Shown: in pieces, positions 4,748-28,394 of the stretch | Layout of the letters: each line of letters opens with the position of its first letter | How positions within the stretch are numbered: position 1 is the first letter of the stretch | Virus record (IMG/VR): IMGVR_UViG_3300031578_000261 | Span: 1-28,456 of that record | DNA from: a virus | Strand: one strand, 5' to 3' | DNA: 28,456 nucleotides | Notes under the pieces: generated by a model | What the model was told of the DNA's origin: nothing | Databases searched by the model: none | The model's input: the letters and a program-made list of their open reading frames with translations, nothing else | Position numbers and translations under genes: made by a program

Positions 4748-5653
4748 ATGACCAGCATCACGACCCGCTCCGGCAAAGGTTCACCTCTCACGCACGACGA
4801 GGTGGACGCGAACTTTACCAACCTGAACGCGGACAAGCTGGAGATTTCCGGCGGCACCGTCACGGGCAACCTGGGCGTCACGGGCAACCTCACCGTGGAC
4901 ACCAACACGCTGTTGGTAAATGCGGCGACTAATCGGGTGGGGATTGGGGTGAGTAGTCCTGCGGTTTTGTTGGACGTTTTGGGCGATGGCCTCATCCAGA
5001 GGCTGAGAAGCACGACTTCCACCGCCGCATACCTTCGCTTCGACGGGACGGGGACAAGTTTTCCCTACGTTGGCCTGCTTAACGGCATTGGGACATTCGG
5101 GAACACTGACGCAAGCCCAATCCGCTTCATGACCAACAGCTCCGAGCGTATGCGCATCACCTCCACAGGATCGGTGGGGATTGGGACGAGTAGTCCTGCT
5201 GCAACGCTTGACGTGGCTGGCACAGGCGCTGTTAAGGTTCCTGTCGGCACAGACGCGCAAAGACCATCCGCCGTTACTGGACTGTTTCGATTTAACACAA
5301 CGTCTGGAGCCTTTGAGGGCTATGACGGCAGTGCTTGGGGAAGCATTGGCGGTGGCGGCGCTGGTGCTAAGGCGTGGGTGAACTTAAATGGCACAGGGAC
5401 GGTTGCCATTCGCGAGAGTTTTAACGTGTCCAGCATCACGGACAACGGGGCGGGGAATTATACGGTTAATTTTGCTACTGCGATGGATGACGCCAACTAC
5501 GTTGTGGCTGGTAGCGCAGGTGCCACCATTGCTCAGCTGATCATGAGTCCCACAAGCATTGCAACCCAGCTTGCGGGTTCAGCGGGGATCATTATTAGTA
5601 ACACAGCAACCCTTGCTGATAACCCGTTAGTTAATGTAGTCATCACCCGCTAA
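4748..5653 (+). CDS. Tail fibre / receptor-binding protein 1
   Basis: A 301-residue protein with fibre-like composition (G, S, T, N and V rich). Residues about 1-30 (TRSGKGSPLTHDEVDANFTNLNADK) form the typical attachment-end motif of phage fibres in which DEVDxNFTNLN precedes the shaft. Two shaft motifs of the type VGIGxSSPxxxLDV occur around residues 65 and 142, a pattern seen in trimeric beta-structured fibres. The C-terminal 110 residues (after a glycine stretch GGGGAGAK) form a beta-rich domain, possibly the receptor-binding head. No S74 chaperone is present in this protein. The DNA around 4921-4990 is unusually G/T-rich compared with flanking parts of the gene, suggesting mosaic origin. 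Confidence 0.75.
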   Translation: MTSITTRSGKGSPLTHDEVDANFTNLNADKLEISGGTVTGNLGVTGNLTVDTNTLLVNAATNRVGIGVSSPAVLLDVLGDGLIQRLRSTTSTAAYLRFDGTGTSFPYVGLLNGIGTFGNTDASPIRFMTNSSERMRITSTGSVGIGTSSPAATLDVAGTGAVKVPVGTDAQRPSAVTGLFRFNTTSGAFEGYDGSAWGSIGGGGAGAKAWVNLNGTGTVAIRESFNVSSITDNGAGNYTVNFATAMDDANYVVAGSAGATIAQLIMSPTSIATQLAGSAGIIISNTATLADNPLVNVVITR

Positions 5654-5666
5654 AGGGGCAGCCAAA

Positions 5667-6134
5667 ATGATCAAACGCATGATCAACTACAGCCAACACA
5701 AACTCTGGGAACGCGAGATGATCTTCAAGGATCAGCACAAGGACTTGCCGCAGGGCAATTACGCGATCCTGTGGGAAGACCCTGCCGCCCCTGACGAACC
5801 CGCCAAGGTAACTCGTCCAAGTCCAACATGGCTGGCTATGGCAATGCACGGTGGCATCCTGCCGCCTGTCGAGGTCTACCACGCGCTGCGCGAGGACGAG
5901 GAGCGCGATGGTTTTATCCGCCACACTCGCGGCCACTCGCTGCACGAGACGCCGCCTGTCCCGGCCATGACTGAGGAAGAGGCGATGGAGTATCTGATTA
6001 CGAAGGACATCCCGCCACGGGTGTGGCGCGACTATCAGGGTAACCGTAGTATTTTGCGAATTGTTCCTGTAGAATTGGTGCCGACTGATAAATCGTATCG
6101 TAACGCTTGGAAAATCAATCAGGAGGCCGCGTAA
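5667..6134 (+). CDS. Fibre-cluster protein with a FRxAW-type end motif
   Basis: A 155-residue, hydrophilic protein between fibre genes. No catalytic motif is visible. The last 20 residues (VPTDKSYRNAWKINQEAA) match the P-x-D-[RK]-x-[FY]-R-x-A-W motif that also opens the next protein (VPQDRTFRGAWQFN), so the two adjacent genes share a short element. AAAGGGG precedes the start. It may be a fibre assembly factor or an appendage protein; I infer this from the neighbours. The stop overlaps the next start by 1 nt (TAATG). Confidence 0.6.
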   Translation: MIKRMINYSQHKLWEREMIFKDQHKDLPQGNYAILWEDPAAPDEPAKVTRPSPTWLAMAMHGGILPPVEVYHALREDEERDGFIRHTRGHSLHETPPVPAMTEEEAMEYLITKDIPPRVWRDYQGNRSILRIVPVELVPTDKSYRNAWKINQEAA

Positions 6135-6487
6135 TGGCTCAGACGCTCATCAACATTAACGGCGACGTTCGTGACCCCGCCTCTCTGACCGTGCCGCAGG
6201 ACCGCACGTTTCGGGGCGCTTGGCAGTTTAACGGCAGTGCAGTGGAAGTTGACATGGCTGCTGCTCGTGACATTCACCGCGACAACCTTCGTGCAGAGCG
6301 CGCGCCCCGCTTGGAGGCGTTGGATGTTGACTACATGAAGGCGCTCGAAGACGCGGACACGGCTGCGCAGCAAGGGATTGCGAGCGTTAAGCAATCGCTT
6401 CGCAACGTAACTTCGGACGCGCGCATTGAGGCTGCTTCAACGCCGGAAGAGTTGACCGCTCTGACGCTTGATGTGCTTCTGGGGTAA
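6134..6487 (+). CDS. Tail fibre assembly-type protein
   Basis: A 117-residue protein. I choose the ATG in the TAATG junction rather than an in-frame codon at 6107 inside the previous gene. It carries VPQDRTFRGAWQFNG at residues about 18-32 and then a helical stretch AARDIHRDNLRAERAPRLEALDVDYMKALEDADT, a pattern I associate with small proteins encoded beside phage tail fibres, some annotated as fibre assembly proteins. The C-terminus (DARIEAASTPEELTAL) is likewise typical. The role as a chaperone or small fibre component is inferred. Confidence 0.62.
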   Translation: MAQTLININGDVRDPASLTVPQDRTFRGAWQFNGSAVEVDMAAARDIHRDNLRAERAPRLEALDVDYMKALEDADTAAQQGIASVKQSLRNVTSDARIEAASTPEELTALTLDVLLG

Positions 6488-6496
6488 GGCATCCAG

Positions 6497-7087
6497 ATGG
6501 TAGCGCCGTATTACGTTGAACCTGATTACTGGCTTGAGGGCTACGCGGTTGGCGACGCCCTTTCTGCGTCGTGTCAGATTGACGCGGCTGCCACGGCTGA
6601 AGCTGACACCATCAATATCCGCAGCGTGGACGCTACAGCGTCAGCAATGCTCACCCCGACGCCTAGCGCTCTACGCATACGCCTCGGCTCTGGTGCGGCC
6701 TCTCCGTCGCTATCAGTGGCTTCATCGGCTGCGCGGGTGAGTCAGGCATCAGCAGCGACATCCGCAGCGCTCACGACATCAGCTACAGCTTTGGCAGTCT
6801 ACGAGATACACGTTGCGGCAGCCGCAACGTCATCGGTGTCTTTAAGCTGCGTCAGGGTGAGGCTAGGTAGCGTTTCGATTGCCTCTGCTCTGACGTTCAC
6901 AGGCAGCGCCATTGAAAAGTGGGAGCCGCTTCCGCCGAATTCAGAAATATGGACCGAAGCGGGCGGCGCGGCGGGCACCTGGATCCCAGCGGGCGATTCT
7001 GGCGGGGCTTGGGTGGCGGCGAGCAACGCAACGGGCATCTGGACGCCCGTTGCCTCAATCGGCAAAACGTGGCAAGATGCGCTTTAA
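6497..7087 (+). CDS. Fibre-like Ala/Ser-rich protein with tryptophan repeats
   Basis: A 196-residue protein, low in charge and rich in A, S and T, which suits an extended beta-structured appendage. It opens with VAPYYVEPDYWLEGYAVGD. The last third contains a loose repeat around W: EIWTEAG, GTWIPAG, GAWVAAS, GIWTPVA and KTWQDAL, spaced 9-11 residues apart. I see no enzyme motif. A short GGGGTAAGG lies about 10 bases upstream of the ATG. It sits between fibre genes and is probably part of the adsorption apparatus. Confidence 0.6.
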   Translation: MVAPYYVEPDYWLEGYAVGDALSASCQIDAAATAEADTINIRSVDATASAMLTPTPSALRIRLGSGAASPSLSVASSAARVSQASAATSAALTTSATALAVYEIHVAAAATSSVSLSCVRVRLGSVSIASALTFTGSAIEKWEPLPPNSEIWTEAGGAAGTWIPAGDSGGAWVAASNATGIWTPVASIGKTWQDAL

Positions 7088-7131
7088 ATTAAGCGCTCTC
7101 TGAGCCACACTGACAACGGATTGGAAGCGAA

Positions 7132-7896
7132 ATGGCCGACACGACCACAACCACATACAGCCTCGTCAAGCCAGAAGTCGGCGCATCCGCTGACACATGG
7201 GGCACGAAGCTCAACACAAACCTCGACAGCCTCGACAATCTGCTGGACGGCACGACGGCGATCTCTCCAAACCTCACCGCCCTCAAGATCGGTGGGGTCA
7301 ACGTAACTGCATCAGTCGCGGAACTCAATCTGCTGGACGGCGTCACGGCCAGCACGGCAGAGTTGAACATCCTCGACGGGGTGACCGCCACGGCTGCCGA
7401 GATCAACATCCTCGACGGGGTGACCGCCACGACTGCGGAGATCAACATCCTCGACGGGGTGACCGCCACGACTGCGGAGATCAACTACGTTGACGGCGTG
7501 ACATCCAGCATCCAGACACAGCTAAATGGCAAGGCGTCCACAGCAACGCAGGCTGAAGCGGCTTGGGAGGCTGGCACTAGCACGACAGAGAGCCTTGTGT
7601 CTCCGGCTAAAGTGAATGCTGCTATTGATACACTCGCTCTCGGTGTTGGTCAGACATGGCAAACCCCCAGCCGAGTTACTGGAGTCTCCTACCAGAACAC
7701 GACAGGGAAGCCCATTCAGGTGACTACTACATTGAGCGACACAGGCCAATTCCAAGTGTCGGTTGACAACTCAACATGGATTATTGTTGCTGCGGCATCG
7801 CCGGGATTTAACGGCGGCAACTCCTCGGCTATTGTGCCTGATCAATGGTATTACCGAGGGGCAGGGCCTGTTACATACAGGGCGGAGTTGAGATGA
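7132..7896 (+). CDS. Tail fibre protein 2 with 13-residue tandem repeats
   Basis: A 254-residue fibre protein. The N-terminus ([35 protein letters not shown]) is the standard phage fibre attachment segment, in which SADTWG is diagnostic. Residues about 60-124 hold five repeats of [13 protein letters not shown], probably forming a triple-stranded shaft. They are followed by [12 protein letters not shown], also common in fibres. The C-terminal 100 residues (from about [11 protein letters not shown]) form a small beta domain resembling fibre tips. GGAAGCGAA precedes the ATG. It probably binds the host surface. Confidence 0.85.
7309..7503 (+). repeat. Five tandem 39-bp units in the fibre shaft
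   Basis: Units lie at 7309-7347, 7348-7386, 7387-7425, 7426-7464 and 7465-7503, each coding 13 residues. The third and fourth units are nearly identical in DNA (they share GAGATCAACATCCTCGACGG), whereas the first and last are diverged. That gradient is usual for repeats that expand and contract by recombination in the middle. Confidence 0.9.
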
Positions 7897-7916
7897 CGAT
7901 AGGTAAGGGGTAGGGT

Positions 7917-9392
7917 ATGCCCCTGATCCCGCTCCAAATCCCCGCAGGTGTTTACCGAAACGGGACTGACTTTCAGGGCAGCAACCGCTGGCGCGATGCC
8001 AACCTTGTGCGTTGGGTGGACAGCACCATGCGCCCCGTGGGCGGGTGGGAAAGCCGCGTGTCGCTCGGCACGACTGCGCCAAGAGCCGCTATAGCGTGGC
8101 AGGACACTACTTCAGACCGCTGGTTTGCCGCTGGCTTCCACGACAAGCTGGTGGTTTCTACTGAGAGCAACATTACCACCGACATCACGCCCGCAGACTT
8201 AACGGCTGGCACGCTGGATGCCGCTACTAACATCGGTTTCGGTGGCGGCTTCTACGGCCTCGGCTTCTACGGCACAGAGCGCGCCGACACTGGCAACTAC
8301 GCAGAGGCAACCACATGGTCCCTAGACAATTGGGGTGAATACCTTGTCGCTTGCTCAACGGCTGACGGACGCCTCCTTGAGTGGCAACTAAACACAGGCG
8401 CAGACGCCGCAGCCATCGCCAACGCACCGACTGATAACCTTGGCTTATTAGTAACTGAGGAGCGTTTCTTGTTTGCCCTTGGCGCTGGCGGCAACCCACG
8501 CCTCGTGCAGTGGTGTGATCGTGAGGACAACACGCTGTGGACCGCAGCCGCGACAAACGAGGCTGGCGACTTGGAGCTTCAGACATCAGGCCAGATCATG
8601 CAGGGCGTCAGGACGCGCGGCCAGTCGCTAATTATTACAGACATCGACGCCCACAGCGCCACATATATTGGCGGCCAGTTTGTCTACGGCTTCCAGCGCG
8701 TCGGCTCATCCTGCGGCGCGATCAGTCGCAAGGCGGCGGCAGCGGTTGACGAGGGCGTCTTCTGGATGGGCCAGCGCGGCTTTTTTTCCTACGCAGGTGG
8801 GGCCGTGCAGGACATCCCCTGCGAGGTTGCGGATTATGTCTTCAACGACATGAACACGGCACAAGGCTCAAAGATTTGGGCTGTGACCAATCAGCAGTAT
8901 AACGAAATCTGGTGGTGGTATCCGTCGGAAGGCTCCAACGAGATCGACCGCTACGTCAGCTACAACTACAAGGAGGGCCACTGGTCTATCGGTCAGTTGT
9001 CACGCACGGCAGGCGTTGATCGCGGCGTGTTCCGCCGCCCGATCTGGTTCAAGACTGACGGCGACGCATACAATCACGACACTGGCCTCAACTACGAGGG
9101 CGCAGACGTTTTCGCAGAGAGTGGCCCAATCAGCCTCGGCGCTGGCGATAACGTCATGTCGGCCACGATGCTCATTCCCGACGAGAATACCCAGGGCGAT
9201 GTCTCGGCAACCTTCAAGACACGCTTCCACCCCAACGACACTGAGCGCAGCTACGGCCCCTACACTATGGCCAACCCTACATCCGTGCGCTTCACTGGCC
9301 GCCAAGTGCGGATGCGGGTTCAGGGTGAGAGGCTGGCAGGCTGGCGGGTCGGGGTTATGCGGCTTGAGGCTGCGCCTGGGGGCAGGCGATGA
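7917..9392 (+). CDS. Tail accessory / packaged-DNA stabilisation-type protein
   Basis: A 491-residue beta-rich virion protein. The opening (PLQIPAGVYRNGTDFQ, then NRWRDANLVRWVD and MRPVGGWE) is a strongly conserved start that I recognise from podovirus structural proteins related to P22 gp10, the tail accessory factor that plugs the portal after packaging. The middle has blades of the form GTRLEWQLNTG and QWCDREDNTLW, and the end (FTGRQVRMRVQGERLAGWRVG) is also typical. It starts at an ATG preceded by AAGGGG and ends in an ATGA overlap. The gp10-like role is the most likely reading, but a general tail hub or baseplate function is possible. Confidence 0.68.
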   Translation: MPLIPLQIPAGVYRNGTDFQGSNRWRDANLVRWVDSTMRPVGGWESRVSLGTTAPRAAIAWQDTTSDRWFAAGFHDKLVVSTESNITTDITPADLTAGTLDAATNIGFGGGFYGLGFYGTERADTGNYAEATTWSLDNWGEYLVACSTADGRLLEWQLNTGADAAAIANAPTDNLGLLVTEERFLFALGAGGNPRLVQWCDREDNTLWTAAATNEAGDLELQTSGQIMQGVRTRGQSLIITDIDAHSATYIGGQFVYGFQRVGSSCGAISRKAAAAVDEGVFWMGQRGFFSYAGGAVQDIPCEVADYVFNDMNTAQGSKIWAVTNQQYNEIWWWYPSEGSNEIDRYVSYNYKEGHWSIGQLSRTAGVDRGVFRRPIWFKTDGDAYNHDTGLNYEGADVFAESGPISLGAGDNVMSATMLIPDENTQGDVSATFKTRFHPNDTERSYGPYTMANPTSVRFTGRQVRMRVQGERLAGWRVGVMRLEAAPGGRR

Positions 9393-23247: not shown

Positions 23248-23329
23248 CCATTTTTGAAAGTTTCTGATACTCAATTTCGGTAATCGCCCCCAGCGCGCGC
23301 AGGGTGGCTAGGGTGTATGGGCGGATCAT
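23234..23329 (-). CDS. 31-residue protein at the end of the methyltransferase cassette
   Basis: A short frame starting at 23329, overlapping the methyltransferase stop by 4 nt (ATGA). The product starts MIRPYTLATLRALGAITE and continues to end KLSKMDTKD. The AITExxYxKL element is also found in two broken copies just downstream, so this is probably the one intact member of a small gene family. Its 3' end lies in a copy of the phosphoesterase gene end. A helix-rich peptide of unknown function. It is supported by the coupled start and by the repeated protein-level pattern. Confidence 0.5.
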   Translation of the reverse strand: MIRPYTLATLRALGAITEIEYQKLSKMDTKD

Positions 23330-24144
23330 TTCTCGGCCTCTGCGGCCAAAATGGCGCGTCCTATCATTTCGGGGATTTGCGGGACGACGGCATTTCCGAG
23401 GGCTTTAAGTCTGTCCACCCTTCGGGGAACCCCATTAGCCACTCGACCCACGTTGGGTTCAGGGAGCCAGTGGAACCGGATCGCATCAACGCGCCCGGAA
23501 GGTAGTCTCTGTCCATCTGTGACGGGGGCTGCGTTGCGTTCTTCGCGTCTTGCAGCGTCGGCGTCGGCCAAAGGGATTGGTGCTTCACTTGCGCTGATAG
23601 CTTCGGCTCCCCCCGGCTGTTCCATTTCCCAGCCTTTCGATCCACATGATCGTCTGACACCGGAGTTTGCCACAATCCAGACCCTATCTCTGCGGTGCGG
23701 TAGGTTCGTGGCGCAAGCTGGAATAACAAACGCCCGGCAGGTGTAGCCTTGTCCTTCCAGGTCAGAAAGCACGTTGTCGAGGCCCATGCTGATGTGCCCA
23801 GCAACATTCTCTCCAATGACCCAAGCGGGCCGCAACTCGTCCACGAGCCGACTAAATTCCGGCCAGAGGTGGCGGTCATCTTCCTTGCCCCTGCGCTTCC
23901 CGGCAGTGGAGAAAGGCTGGCAGGGGTATCCCCCGCAAATAACGTCAACTGGTCCGACATGCTCTGCCCTCAATTTTCTTATGTCTTTGTGGATAGTAAC
24001 ATTTGGCCAGTGCTTTGCCAAAACGCGGCGTGGGAATGACTCAATCTCGCAGAAGGCGGCGGTTTCAAATCCGCCCGTTCGTTCAAGGCCAAGGCTAAAG
24101 CCGCCTATGCCGCTAAACAAGTCAAGAACGCGCAGCTTTTCCAT
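23326..24144 (-). CDS. DNA (cytosine-5) methyltransferase
   Basis: A 272-residue C5 methyltransferase that transfers a methyl group from S-adenosylmethionine to cytosine in a short DNA site. Motif I is DLFSGIGGFSLG (residues 8-19), motif IV GGYPCQPFS with catalytic C75, motif VI GENV (111-114), motif VIII HRRDRVWIVA, and motif X GNAVVP (250-255). The recognition region between motifs VIII and IX (about 160-235) is short. The start is the MEKLRVLDLF codon in a TGATG overlap; an upstream in-frame codon at 24207 lies inside the previous gene. No restriction enzyme gene is seen, so it probably protects phage DNA or changes host sites. Another reading frame lies inside it. Confidence 0.9.
   Translation of the reverse strand: MEKLRVLDLFSGIGGFSLGLERTGGFETAAFCEIESFPRRVLAKHWPNVTIHKDIRKLRAEHVGPVDVICGGYPCQPFSTAGKRRGKEDDRHLWPEFSRLVDELRPAWVIGENVAGHISMGLDNVLSDLEGQGYTCRAFVIPACATNLPHRRDRVWIVANSGVRRSCGSKGWEMEQPGGAEAISASEAPIPLADADAARREERNAAPVTDGQRLPSGRVDAIRFHWLPEPNVGRVANGVPRRVDRLKALGNAVVPQIPEMIGRAILAAEAEK
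23364..23960 (-). CDS. Candidate gene nested inside the methyltransferase (198 codons)
   Basis: A 198-codon open frame lying wholly inside the methyltransferase gene, on the same strand in another frame. Its ATG is preceded by TTGAGGGCAGAGC, a plausible ribosome site. The product looks like a protein and not like a chance shadow: it opens MSDQLTLFAGDTPASLSPLPG, then MTATSGRNL, the segment TTCFLTWKDKATPAGRLLFQL, two copies of LWxTP (SGLWQTP, QSLWPTP), and ends SLNPTWVEWLMGFPEGWTDL. I recognise this order (LTWK, RLLFQL, LWPTP, LNPxWVEWLMGFPxGWT) from proteins found beside C5 methyltransferases in phages and bacteria. It covers residues about 62-260 of the enzyme. A separate function is inferred; conservation forced by the other frame is the alternative. 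Confidence 0.5.
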   Translation of the reverse strand: MSDQLTLFAGDTPASLSPLPGSAGARKMTATSGRNLVGSWTSCGPLGSLERMLLGTSAWASTTCFLTWKDKATPAGRLLFQLAPRTYRTAEIGSGLWQTPVSDDHVDRKAGKWNSRGEPKLSAQVKHQSLWPTPTLQDAKNATQPPSQMDRDYLPGALMRSGSTGSLNPTWVEWLMGFPEGWTDLKPSEMPSSRKSPK

Positions 24145-24281
24145 CACGACAGCCACAACGCCAACAGCGCCCCCACGCAAGCCCAGATGGTCACGCCAAC
24201 AATCCATATGCGAGACGGGCGGCGGGCCATCGGGTCGCGGTCGCGTATGTCAGCGAAACGTGGCATGTCTTTGCGGGTCAT
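24144..24281 (-). CDS. Tiny membrane protein (45 aa) before the methyltransferase
   Basis: A 45-residue protein starting at 24281 with GAGGT seven to eleven bases upstream. The N-terminal half is charged (MTRKDMPRFADIRDRDPMARR) and the C-terminal half is one membrane helix (IWIVGVTIWACVGALLALW). A longer in-frame extension to 24458 runs antisense-like through two coupled genes and has poor protein character. The start overlaps the previous stop (ATGA) and the stop overlaps the methyltransferase start (TGATG). No family known to me. Confidence 0.6.
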   Translation of the reverse strand: MTRKDMPRFADIRDRDPMARRPSRIWIVGVTIWACVGALLALWLS

Positions 24282-24382
24282 CGTGTTACCTCGATCTGCA
24301 CGGCAACGGCTTCTGTCATTGCCTGATATGTGATGTGGCTGGCCCAGAGGGCAGCGGTGAGGGTGAGGGCAAGACGGATCAT
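24278..24382 (-). CDS. Tiny hydrophobic protein (34 aa)
   Basis: A 34-residue frame linked by ATGA overlaps on both sides: its ATG shares bases with the stop of the 90-residue gene, and its stop shares bases with the next tiny gene. The product opens MIRLALTLTAALWASHITYQ, which is a signal or single membrane segment, and ends EAVAVQIEVTR. Together with the following tiny membrane protein it forms a pair that may work as one small membrane unit; this is inferred from the neighbours. Confidence 0.5.
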   Translation of the reverse strand: MIRLALTLTAALWASHITYQAMTEAVAVQIEVTR

Positions 24383-24651
24383 TGCAGCGCCTCCACCAGC
24401 CATTGCGGCATGTCCTGATTGCGGAGCCGCAAACGCTTAGCCACGCAGGCGAAAGCATCTTCGGTCACGTCAATCATCATTCCGGCTTTGCCCTTTGCGC
24501 CCGGCTCTACGCGGAAAACAATGCTTTCATCTCCATCTTCCATGTTCTCAGCAAAGAGATCAACGGCCCCATCGAAATCAAGAGGGTCAGAAGTGCCAAT
24601 GCCAAGGCGGGAAAAGTCAGTGTATGTCATGTAATGTGTGGTCAGTTTCAT
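24379..24651 (-). CDS. Hypothetical protein heading the methyltransferase cassette
   Basis: A 90-residue protein with a good ribosome site (AGAGGAAA eight to ten bases upstream). The N-terminus (KLTTHYMTYTDFSRLG) is followed by an acidic centre (ENMEDGDESIVFRVEPG) and a helical end (VAKRLRLRNQDMPQWLVEAL). No family known to me. It is the first gene of a minus-strand chain of five overlapping genes and its promoter region is shared with the divergent RHH gene, which may control it. Confidence 0.6.
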   Translation of the reverse strand: MKLTTHYMTYTDFSRLGIGTSDPLDFDGAVDLFAENMEDGDESIVFRVEPGAKGKAGMMIDVTEDAFACVAKRLRLRNQDMPQWLVEALQ

Positions 24652-24762
24652 GGTGTTTTCCTCTAAGCGTTATCATTGCATGGACCGTAAAGGGCGGTAA
24701 AGACGATTGCAAGCGAAAATGAGGGGATTGCGTCTTTACTTTTTCTCTGCCATGATGAGCGC
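24652..24762. promoter_or_regulatory. Divergent control region with GTAAAG operator-like boxes
   Basis: This 111-bp gap separates the divergent minus cassette and the RHH gene. It carries GTAAAG at 24697-24702, GTAAAGACG at 24707-24715, and the exact inverse CGTCTTTAC at 24731-24739. The two direct boxes start 10 bp apart, one helical turn, and the third is inverted. RHH proteins usually bind repeats of this sort, so self-control of the neighbouring gene is a sound guess. A weak promoter toward the RHH gene is TTGCGT-N17-CATGAT (24728 to 24756). A five-codon frame ATGATGAGCGCATGA (24752-24766) ends on the RHH start codon. Confidence 0.45.
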
Positions 24763-24918
24763 ATGAAAAAAGCACTCATCAACTTTAAGGCTGACCCGGC
24801 AGATATTGATCGCTGGAAAGCCGCGCTTGAAAGGGATGGCCGCACCATGTCTGAGGTGTGCCGCCAGAGCCTTGACCGCATCGCCAAGCGCATAGAAAAA
24901 CAGGCGGGCCAGCAATGA
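24763..24918 (+). CDS. Ribbon-helix-helix (CopG-type) DNA-binding protein
   Basis: A 51-residue protein on the + strand between minus-strand blocks. The sequence (KKALINFKADPADIDRWKAALERDGRT then MSEVCRQSLDRIAKRIEK) fits an RHH repressor: a short N-terminal strand that enters the DNA groove (ALINFKAD), then two helices joined by a short turn. RHH proteins bind as dimers to repeated operator boxes; three GTAAAG boxes lie just upstream. A strong terminator follows its stop, so it is a single-gene unit. No ribosome site of normal strength is seen, and it may be translated from a very short leader. Confidence 0.75.
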   Translation: MKKALINFKADPADIDRWKAALERDGRTMSEVCRQSLDRIAKRIEKQAGQQ

Positions 24919-24976
24919 CCCGTCAACCGGACCCCTGCCCCTCCTCCCGCTGCGTAAGCGGTGGGCAGGCAACTGC

Positions 24977-25006
24977 GGGCGGGGCTTCGGCCTCGCCCGG
25001 CTTTTT
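24977..25006 (+). terminator. Strong rho-independent terminator with TTCG loop
   Basis: GGGCGGGGC (24977-24985) pairs with GCCTCGCCC (24990-24998) over nine pairs, including one G-T, around a TTCG tetraloop, then GGC and a run of five T. It ends the RHH transcript before the convergent helicase gene. On the other strand no T-run follows the hairpin, so it acts in one direction. Confidence 0.85.
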
Positions 25007-25038
25007 CAGACCTACCTGCCCAGATTGCCCGCCAGCCA

Positions 25039-26379
25039 TTACGGCTTGAGCGCAGTGAGCAGTGATGATTGCGTTGCGTCCTTATCGCGCAGCACAGCGG
25101 CAACGCGCGCGTCAATCGTGTCTGTGCCAAGCAGCCGCACAATGCGCACTGGGCGCCCCTGCCCTTGGCGGTGCAGTCGCGCGTTGAATTGCTGCGTAAG
25201 TTCAAGCGACCAGTTTAACCCAAACCAAACGCAAAGCGCGCCGCCAGATTGCAAATTTAGGCCATGGCCTGCACTCGCGGGATGGGCCAACAGCATCTCG
25301 ATTTCGCCCCTATTCCATCGGTCAATCGTGCTTTGGCTCTTGTCCAAGACAACTGCCTGCGGAAACCGATCTTTCAGCCGCGCCAGATCGCTTTTGAAGT
25401 TATAGGCCACCAGCATTGTCTCGCCCGAGTTGTCATCCACAAGGTCAGACAGGGCGTCCAGCTTTGCGGAGTGAACGGCAGACCACGCGCCGTTGGGGTC
25501 GGTGTAGAGCGCGCCGTTTGAGAATTGCATCAACTTGTTGGCCAGCACAGCCGCCGTCATGGCCTCGACTTCATCGCCGTCATCCAGTTCGGCCAGCGAG
25601 GTGCGCTCAAATTCTTTGTATTGCGCGGTGGCCCTTGGCCCAAGATCAACAGGCACGTCAATCTCAATGCGGTCGGGCAGATCAAGATAGTCATCGCCGC
25701 TCATGTGGATGATTTTATCAGCAACCAGCCCCTCGATCTTTGAGGCGGACCCATCGCGGATCGTGTATTTGTAGCCCATATAATCCTTATCAAAGAACCG
25801 ATCCCGAAAGCCCGTCAGCGTCCTGCCCAGGCGCTCCCCGTAATCTACAAGAAACATCTGCGCCCACAGGTCTTGCAATCCATTCGGGCTGGGCGTTCCT
25901 GTCAGCAAAACCAGTCGCTCGACAAAGGGCAGCGTTTTGCGTAATGCCTTGAAGCGCTTGCTTTGGCTGTTTTTGAATGTGCTGCTTTCGTCAATCACGA
26001 TCATGTCGAATGGCCACTTCTTGCCAAAATGTTCAACGACCCACTGCACGTTCTCTTTGTTCGTCACATAGACGTCAGCCGTTTTGAACAGCGCCGCTGT
26101 GCGCGCCTTGGCGCTGCCAGTGGCCACAGAGACGCGCAGGTGGCGCGTATGTTCCCACTTCTGGGCCTCTTGCGCCCAGACGCTATTGCAGACGCGCAGG
26201 GGCGCTATGATCAGCACCTTTGAGACAACGCCCGCCCCAACCATGTCGCTGATAGCTGTCAGGGTGGAAACGCTTTTCCCAAGGCCCATATCAAGCGCCA
26301 ACATGCAGCGCCCCTTGTCGATGATATAATCAGCCGCGCGGTGTTGGTATTCGTGCAGGTCTTCACGGCTCAAAGGCAT
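25039..26379 (-). CDS. SNF2-type helicase/ATPase
   Basis: A 446-residue superfamily 2 DNA translocase. Motif I is LDMGLGKS with K35, motif Ia IAPLRVC, motif II is DES with D130 and E131 (MIVIDESSTFK), motif III LTGTPSPN, motif V AHPASAGHGLNLQ and motif VI QFNARLHRQGQ. These fit the SNF2 group, which moves along double-stranded DNA; phage members help in replication or recombination. I start at the ATG at 26379 because AAGGA lies eight bases upstream; a TTG at 26400 and ATG at 26388 are also in frame. It overlaps the end of the VRR-NUC gene by 17 nt. Confidence 0.88.
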   Translation of the reverse strand: MPLSREDLHEYQHRAADYIIDKGRCMLALDMGLGKSVSTLTAISDMVGAGVVSKVLIIAPLRVCNSVWAQEAQKWEHTRHLRVSVATGSAKARTAALFKTADVYVTNKENVQWVVEHFGKKWPFDMIVIDESSTFKNSQSKRFKALRKTLPFVERLVLLTGTPSPNGLQDLWAQMFLVDYGERLGRTLTGFRDRFFDKDYMGYKYTIRDGSASKIEGLVADKIIHMSGDDYLDLPDRIEIDVPVDLGPRATAQYKEFERTSLAELDDGDEVEAMTAAVLANKLMQFSNGALYTDPNGAWSAVHSAKLDALSDLVDDNSGETMLVAYNFKSDLARLKDRFPQAVVLDKSQSTIDRWNRGEIEMLLAHPASAGHGLNLQSGGALCVWFGLNWSLELTQQFNARLHRQGQGRPVRIVRLLGTDTIDARVAAVLRDKDATQSSLLTALKP

Positions 26380-26629
26380 TGGCGTCATCCTTGTTATCAA
26401 TCACGCGCACATCGCAGCCCATTGCGCGGCGTCGGGCGTGGTCGCGCGCCTGCAACGGCGTGGGCTTCTTGCCAGGGGCTTTGAGTTCCACGAAAACAAT
26501 CGCGCCGTTGGGCATTGTAATCAGCCGATCAGGCACAGACCGCCGACCGGGCGAGGTGAATTTCTCGCAAGTGCCGCCAAGGCTTTCAACGCGGCGCACA
26601 AGGGCGCGCTCAACATCGCGCTCAAGCAT
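26363..26629 (-). CDS. VRR-NUC domain nuclease
   Basis: An 88-residue protein that consists of a VRR-NUC domain, a PD-(D/E)xK nuclease fold found alone in many phages. The active-site residues are D34 (VPDRLI), E48 and K50 (FVELKAPG), followed by Q60 in PTPLQ. Members are thought to cut branched DNA such as Holliday junctions. The ATG overlaps the end of the polymerase gene by 8 nt, and the end overlaps the helicase start, so the three proteins are probably made together for replication and recombination. Confidence 0.85.
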   Translation of the reverse strand: MLERDVERALVRRVESLGGTCEKFTSPGRRSVPDRLITMPNGAIVFVELKAPGKKPTPLQARDHARRRAMGCDVRVIDNKDDANAFEP

Positions 26630-28394
26630 ACCCGATACCCGCCAAAACTTTCATCGCCATGCCGACATACCTTTCCCGCTCAACGTCCGCCGGGAATGTG
26701 TCTGGCAGGTCCATCAGGGGCCGCGCGCCGTCTGACTTCGGCACCTTGTTGCCGTTGATCTTGTAAAGGATGCCCTGATCCTGATCGACAGCATCGGAAT
26801 AATAAAACCGCACAGACTTGCCAATCGGCTTGCCCTGCCATGTCGCGCCGCCCGTCACTTTGCGAACAGACACAAACTTGCGAATGTCTTGGCAGTTGCG
26901 GATCACGTTGCGGAAGTCGGCCTGCCCCGACACATGCGCAGCGACAGCCTCGGCAACAATTCCAAAGTCGGGGTTCTTGCTCAAGCTGGACGCGCCAAGT
27001 GCGCCCTTGGTTTTGGTAGAGCCATCGGGCTTCACTGCTATATAGCTGTTCACGTCTCGGCTATAGAGCGCGCGGTATTCGGTGCGCTCAAGTTCATATG
27101 ACGTGTCCATCTGCCAATCAAAAGCGGCTTGCTCAATGTCGCCGTTCATCTCTTTAGGCGCAAAGATCACAACCCCGTCAGTGTTGGCGCTCACCACCGT
27201 TGCGCCGATGGCCGTCATCCGCTCGATCAGCATCAATAGGCATAACTGCCCAGTGATGGTTGTCTGGATCAGCAGGGCGGGAGCGTAAAGGTTTGACCAC
27301 TTGCTGCCCAGCTTTCCAAACGACCCGTTCACGACAATCTTCAGCGTGTCGGCAGTCACCTTGTCGCCCGTGTGCTTCGCCTCAAGGCGGCGCGTCACAA
27401 TGCTTTGGTAGGCGGGCAGGAAGTGGCCCCTCATGTTTTCAGGCTCAAGACCCTGCTGCAAGATGATGCTGGGATAATAAGACGCGACATCCAACTCAAA
27501 AAGCATGTGGTCATCGCCAGCGCGGACGCCCTGCCCCTTTTCGGTTGAGTGCAGTCCACCAATACCCATTTGATATGCGCCATCGCCAATCGTTATTTTG
27601 GTGTCGGAAAGCCACTTGGGCATTTTCACAGACCCGTTGCCCGACAGTTCAAAGTCGTGCGCGCAAATGCGCTCAAAAATAGCAGCGATGGCCGGATCGT
27701 CAAAGTTGACAATGCCCGGATCAGTATATCGGACAGTCGCATCGTCATCTATTTTCAGAGGGCGCAGCGTGGTCTTGGATTGCGCCTCAATCTCGGACTT
27801 CAAAACCACCTCGGCAATCTGCGCGTCAGACTTTGACCGCAGGTCAACGCCATACTGCTTGCCCATCTCAACGCGCAGCGCAAGCTGGGGCGCGATGGTG
27901 TCGGCCAGCGCTTTGGTGACGCGCAGGTCATTGACGCAATACGCGCCCACCTCGTCCATCTGCGCAGGTGTCAGCGTTGCCGAATGCTCATAGGGCAAAT
28001 CTTGCAGCCTGGCAGACCCGATCCGCGCGCCGTATATCTTCAGGCTGGCTTGGCCGGGCAGGACTTCAATGATGTCGATGGTATCCCAGCCGCGCGGTTC
28101 GCGGATGCCCTCGTCCTGCGCAACGCGCCAGCTTGGCAGGTTGCTGCGGATGATCTTGTCGGACAGGGTTTTCAGTTCCGCGCAGCTACGATTTTCGAGC
28201 GCGGCGGCAATCATGATCTCGTCATATGACTTATTGTTAAAGCCCAGAAGAGTGTCGCTGCGCATCCGGTGCGCCAGCCTTGCCACATCCAGTTTTCCAT
28301 CGTCGCGCATCTCAACAGACGCGACCTTTCCGGCGGCGTTCATAAACGCGACATGGAAGAAATTTCGATAGCACTCAACGTCAAAAATCAGCAT
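26622..28394 (-). CDS. Family B DNA polymerase with proofreading domain
   Basis: A 590-residue polymerase. The N-terminal exonuclease has Exo I D5/E7 (IFDVEC), Exo II N54-Y57-D58 (FNNKSYDE) and Exo III Y152-x3-D156 (YCVNDL). The polymerase part has motif A D302 (ELDVASYYPSI), motif B K352-N356-G360 (KIVVNGSFG) and motif C (SANTDGVV) with D406. Motif C has N where most family B enzymes have their first D and G where they have S, while the catalytic D is kept. GLHSTEKG (281-288) is typical of short phage members. The start is supported by GAGG five to nine bases upstream, though the same frame stays open to the window edge. Confidence 0.9.
   Translation of the reverse strand: MLIFDVECYRNFFHVAFMNAAGKVASVEMRDDGKLDVARLAHRMRSDTLLGFNNKSYDEIMIAAALENRSCAELKTLSDKIIRSNLPSWRVAQDEGIREPRGWDTIDIIEVLPGQASLKIYGARIGSARLQDLPYEHSATLTPAQMDEVGAYCVNDLRVTKALADTIAPQLALRVEMGKQYGVDLRSKSDAQIAEVVLKSEIEAQSKTTLRPLKIDDDATVRYTDPGIVNFDDPAIAAIFERICAHDFELSGNGSVKMPKWLSDTKITIGDGAYQMGIGGLHSTEKGQGVRAGDDHMLFELDVASYYPSIILQQGLEPENMRGHFLPAYQSIVTRRLEAKHTGDKVTADTLKIVVNGSFGKLGSKWSNLYAPALLIQTTITGQLCLLMLIERMTAIGATVVSANTDGVVIFAPKEMNGDIEQAAFDWQMDTSYELERTEYRALYSRDVNSYIAVKPDGSTKTKGALGASSLSKNPDFGIVAEAVAAHVSGQADFRNVIRNCQDIRKFVSVRKVTGGATWQGKPIGKSVRFYYSDAVDQDQGILYKINGNKVPKSDGARPLMDLPDTFPADVERERYVGMAMKVLAGIGYA

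Follow-up and report, generated by a model that had tools for sequence, protein, structure and literature searches.

Arc, the RHH protein of phage P22, binds between the -35 and -10 elements of the promoter that it represses. A self-repressing RHH protein with its operators is textbook phage biology and represents a known kind of system. In the immI region of P22, ant is controlled by mnt and arc (PMC8022706). The RHH protein RelB of E. coli was shown to bind the operator half-site TTGTAATGACAT (PMC2812701). Immunity regions provide a precedent for related phages that carry regulators of differing specificities, with differing operators, at the same place (PMC6550527). The window analysed here, i.e., the whole 28,456-base stretch of virus record IMGVR_UViG_3300031578_000261, carried the gene of a 51-aa RHH protein. 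The best explanation of this locus, which we regard as probable, is that an Arc/RelB-like RHH autorepressor also represses a divergent operon of four genes, the last of which encodes a C5 methyltransferase.

Like Arc, the protein is a phage RHH of about 50 residues with an Arc-like PHROG match, and Arc was among the structures aligned with its model; its sequence similarity to Arc, however, was faint. Unlike the P22 immI region, the window contained neither ant nor mnt, and the RHH gene was located between replication and methyltransferase genes. Its neighbours were a helicase, orf90, orf34, orf45 and the methyltransferase, and an immI-type region in which arc stands with mnt and ant was rejected. 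The likeness to RelB and its operator relO lay in the best Foldseek match, in RelB being an autoregulating RHH and in the box of a related phage (L018; such loci are given by L numbers), which has ten relO half-site bases (PMC2812701). In contrast to that system, the window had no RelE-like toxin, its RHH protein had no C-terminal toxin-binding tail, and its box letters differed from relO. As for lambda cI/cro and the Cluster A mycobacteriophage repressors, the regulators found at the same place in related phages appear to differ in specificity and operators, whereas here a single small regulator was present and unrelated folds shared one slot, namely the place behind the helicase gene on the opposite strand.

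The first-pass annotation described one + strand RHH gene between minus-strand blocks, and this arrangement was confirmed. The ORF (MKKALINFKADPADIDRWKAALERDGRTMSEVCRQSLDRIAKRIEKQAGQQ; 24763-24918, +) was present, with orf90 starting at 24651 on one side and an SNF2-type helicase gene (25039-26400, -), identified by profile matches and convergent with the RHH gene, on the other. The replication genes VRR-NUC (26363-26629, -) and polymerase (26622-28394, -) were located beyond the helicase, and the virion genes of the window, namely terminase, endolysin, SU10-type portal, scaffold and major head proteins, were on the + strand. The divergent minus-strand operon was opened by orf90 (24379-24651), whose function was unassigned, followed by orf34 (24278-24382), the start of which overlaps the orf90 stop (ATGA), and by orf45 (24144-24281), a predicted small membrane protein with a hydrophobic stretch read by eye, the start of which overlaps the orf34 stop. 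The operon was closed by a C5-cytosine DNA methyltransferase gene (23326-24144; PF00145, E 1.3e-40; phrog_363, E 1.5e-86; TIGR00675, E 3.6e-34). The four genes overlap by stop and start codons, so there is no room for an intergenic promoter among them, and the operon originates in the RHH-orf90 intergenic region. A 44-aa ORF (24915-25049), which overlaps the RHH stop (ATGA) and crosses the terminator hairpin into the helicase antisense strand, is probably non-coding.

The assignment of the 51-aa protein to the RHH family was drawn from several lines. The PHROG Arc-like repressor matched it with an E value of 5.6e-4, the Pfam family RHH_10 was sub-threshold (E 0.019, 15.6 bits versus a cut-off of 27), and the NCBIfam search returned no match. 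The AlphaFold model, for which the input was five related sequences, had a mean pLDDT of 79.5 and two helices (residues 12-25 and 29-49) behind an extended N-terminus; the strand itself was unformed in the monomer model. Foldseek ranked RelB of E. coli first with a weak E value of 1.1, and four of the five PDB chains aligned by VIA-align were RHH proteins (DinJ, RelB, Arc and Rv0298), at low Z values of 2.6-3.8. Moreover, RHH relatives were located behind the same helicase gene in the same orientation (tblastn E down to 3e-10). These lines were individually weak, but because they combine with conserved synteny, the assignment is considered safe enough. Other searches added little: the 51-aa sequence alone found no relatives in IMG/VR, the five-sequence alignment found nothing beyond the loci already reached through the helicase, and no relatives were found in the genome contigs or, by tblastn, in the phage records. 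Searches with the RHH proteins of L026 and L018 returned the same contigs again and no others, and PDB sequence searches matched mostly designed or unrelated proteins.

Promoters of both directions were predicted in the intergenic region with a rough E. coli matrix written for this analysis, which may not be that of the host, and both were weak matches to it. The predicted RHH promoter (TTGCGT-17-CATGAT; 24728-24756, +) was in the top 0.5% of window positions. Its -10 element ends 7 nt ahead of the ATG, so the RHH mRNA is predicted to be leaderless; no Shine-Dalgarno sequence was seen. The predicted divergent promoter of the orf90-methyltransferase operon (TTGCAA-17-TACGGT; 24684-24712, -) was in the top 0.2%. 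Downstream of the RHH gene, the nine-pair TTCG-loop terminator reported earlier was present and strong (24976-25006, +). Its stem (24976-24999) had ten pairs, i.e., nine Watson-Crick pairs and one G-U, with a TTCG loop and the tail GCTTTTT (a T5 tail); the folding z value was -2.8, and none of 200 shuffles was equally stable. A weak terminator-like hairpin of the minus strand was also seen over the RHH stop codon (24905-24922), which could end helicase transcripts; such sites were not above chance frequency in the region.

The three GTAAAG boxes described upstream of the gene, two direct and one inverted, with 9-bp arms, were all in place (24687-24692, +; 24697-24702, +; 24734-24739, -), and they cover the predicted promoters of both directions. 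The exact inverted arms were GTAAAGACG (24697-24705) and CGTCTTTAC (24731-24739), with a spacing of 25 nt. The proximal arm, which is GTAAAGACG inverted (24731-24739, -), is a predicted operator box that spans -32 to -24 relative to the RHH start, and the distal arm (24697-24705, +) is a predicted operator box between the -35 and -10 elements predicted for the divergent promoter. The third hexamer (24687-24692, +), 10 bp from the distal box, overlaps the predicted divergent -10 element and is weak alone. The 28.5 kb record contained no further copy of GTAAAGACG. Of 767 tiles of 111 bp from the window, 13 (about 2%) had exact inverted arms of at least 9 bases, as did 2% of the mononucleotide-shuffled versions of the region. 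The bare hexamer was near chance, with 12 copies in the window against 6.6 expected, a count that 7 of 100 shuffles also reached, and the direct pair with 10-bp spacing was not significant (p 0.82 by shuffling); the third box of the earlier description stands at chance. When the whole of IMG/VR was scanned, the exact box pair turned up in seven stretches, of which none had an RHH gene and most were in coding DNA. The boxes of the window alone are weak evidence, and the statistical weight rests on the relatives.

The relatives were collected by helicase-anchored searches, which gave 61 and then 80 viral loci. RHH genes on the opposite strand behind the helicase were present in two further lineages (L018/L019/L021/L024 and L026-L028), in both of which a DUF6378 gene then follows the RHH gene. 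The slot also held a NikA-like RHH in L034, another small RHH in L031, and HTH-like proteins in L006, L009, L025, L032, L114 and L121, several with weak family matches only. The divergent genes beside the slot varied among phages. A DUF6378-like gene was observed opposite the helicase, with or without a regulator, in L018, L026, L034, L025, L032, L057, L030 and L052; of these, the L018 copy alone has a Pfam score, and the others were judged alike by eye. The window had no such gene, and its RHH gene stands alone. Many relatives had no slot regulator, including the closest one, L007 (helicase about 91-93% identical), so the RHH gene is dispensable. The L007 helicase is broken by an intein-like insertion (5001-7250) that begins CLHPATEVLTERRGW, ends HNS and seems to include an endonuclease-like stretch; no such insertion is present in the window helicase. 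In the same record, at about 7041-9084, the helicase C-terminus and the next genes occur in two copies about 891 bases apart, with pentapeptide-repeat-like ORFs, as either a real duplication or an assembly artefact. In the literature on phage RHHs, divergent promoters and early genes, with few subscription journals covered, no paper described the slot.

Repeated boxes were then compared upstream of these regulators. Against GTAAAGACG at -66/-32 in the window, the boxes were TTGTGTAATGACAGA at -93/-36 in L018 (RHH), TTTGTATTGACA at -69/-34, inverted, in L026 (RHH), AAACAAATTGCGC at -59/-30 in L009 (HTH-like), and GACATTTTGTC-type boxes at -60/-34 in L121 and L114 (HTH-like); none of 400 shuffles reached any of the boxes of the relatives. 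The palindromic boxes GACATTTTGTC / GACAAAATGTC of L114/L121, at -60 and -34, are clear candidates for the operator of a regulator of another type. One box copy was located 22-36 bases (18-30 in one case) ahead of the start in the window and in two RHH and two HTH-like lineages. The gene-nearest copy always lay between -36 and -18, the location of the proximal box of the window, whereas the distal copy varied from -59 to -93 and the box letters differed by lineage. Of the ten slot regulators compared, four (L006, L025, L034 and L031) had no clear box pair.

The predicted -10 elements ended at -7 in the window, -8 in L018 (where a better-scoring promoter match exists further upstream), -7 in L026 and -9 in L009. 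Box and predicted leaderless promoter thus occurred together in four of five cases. Among 655 control ORF starts, such a promoter was found in 14, such a box in 23, and both in 2; this control set includes some slot loci themselves, so the comparison of box plus promoter is conservative. The expectation that boxes are kept where the RHH is kept held for the layout, which was in the same place, but not for the letters, which differed between RHHs only about 31-37% identical; among the relatives found, none had the window box letters beside an RHH. Between the L018 and L026 boxes, a 10-mer agrees at nine of ten bases (0.2% of shuffles), and the predicted recognition strand reads QFRA in the RHHs of these two lineages versus NFKA in the window RHH. 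The covariation of strand residues with box letters over three lineages is suggestive only. The L018 box also includes TGTAATGACA, which reproduces ten bases of the operator half-site bound by RelB; this match came up incidentally and was not set up as a test.

From the gene, boxes, terminator, operon order and recurring layout, we infer that a small RHH repressor would control the back-to-back promoter pair. RHH dimers would bind the boxes. At the proximal box, over the -35 element and spacer of their own leaderless promoter, they would repress their own gene, and binding to the distal box, located between the -35 and -10 elements of the divergent promoter, would repress the orf90-orf34-orf45-methyltransferase operon. 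This operon would be on early after infection and then damped as the RHH protein accumulates, and the terminator would keep RHH transcripts from entering the convergent helicase gene. This core reading, in which the RHH protein controls both its own gene and the divergent operon, is likely, judged by comparison with the relatives. The earlier proposal of self-control is supported by the box over the predicted own promoter and by the recurrence of the layout with other regulators; that of divergent control is supported by boxes over both predicted promoters, with the methyltransferase as fourth gene. The RHH protein is read here as a repressor but may be an activator.

Control might extend to the RHH gene itself only, with the distal box serving self-repression that is cooperative or looped and with something else controlling the methyltransferase operon. 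What stays constant across lineages is indeed the box in the promoter of the regulator itself, the position of the distal box is variable, and the divergent genes differ between phages. However, the distal box of the window falls inside the best predicted divergent promoter, and the overlapping operon genes leave an intergenic promoter no space, and we consider self-control alone unlikely. Far less credible is a chance repeat, with the RHH protein acting elsewhere or not at all: the arms have a probability of about 2% within the window and the box letters are unique to the window phage, but other regulators show the same box position and promoter layout, and only 2 of the 655 control starts combined the two features.

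Two further readings concern the purpose of the gene. The first-pass annotation proposed a switch for the timing of DNA modification, and this was not supported, because C5 methyltransferases were rare among the relatives and absent from the other RHH-bearing records searched. The enzyme was found in 3 of 19 related records (the window, the L007 phage and the L013 phage) and in none of the three other RHH-bearing records searched, which may be fragments. The L007 copy is located between the polymerase and VRR-NUC, with no regulator in the slot. The idea may describe at most the window phage and does not appear to be the purpose of the slot. A dedicated controller of this type would resemble the C proteins of restriction-modification systems, i.e., small autoregulators beside a methyltransferase operon, and the methyltransferase does belong to the divergent operon; yet the fold is RHH, whereas C proteins have an HTH, the scan of the neighbouring proteins recognised no restriction enzyme, the methyltransferase linkage is unconserved, and the gene is only the fourth and last of its operon. 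Such a controller is therefore very improbable. An antitoxin half of a toxin-antitoxin pair would also be autoregulated through boxes, and the nearest structural matches include the antitoxin RHHs DinJ, RelB and Rv0298, while the box of a relative (L018) matches the RelB operator. Nevertheless, no toxin gene adjoins the RHH gene in one operon, as in type II systems; the terminator and the convergent helicase follow it instead. The sole ORF overlapping its stop looks non-coding, the DUF6378 gene that follows in relatives also occurs there without an RHH, and 51 aa leave no toxin-binding tail. There is little chance that the gene is an antitoxin.

The autorepressor controlling a divergent promoter pair is itself a familiar arrangement, and the swapping of regulators with position-matched but differing boxes is the part worth following. 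The slot offers a natural set for studying the joint change of DNA-binding specificity and operators, and annotators may take small opposite-strand ORFs in the helicase slot as likely regulators. No match to the tyrosine integrase family (Phage_integrase, PF00589) was found in 19 records, several of them possibly fragments, and hence a lysogeny role for the slot regulator is not indicated. We tentatively suggest, as a possibility that is still doubtful, that in a broad group of phages without recognisable integrases the helicase slot holds interchangeable small RHH or HTH-like regulators, unrelated in fold, each accompanied by an operator pair of its own that is fixed in position over the regulator's promoter. 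If this is true, even strictly lytic phages would have immunity-like groups, and the early operon of a co-infecting relative could be turned off by the regulator of a resident phage.
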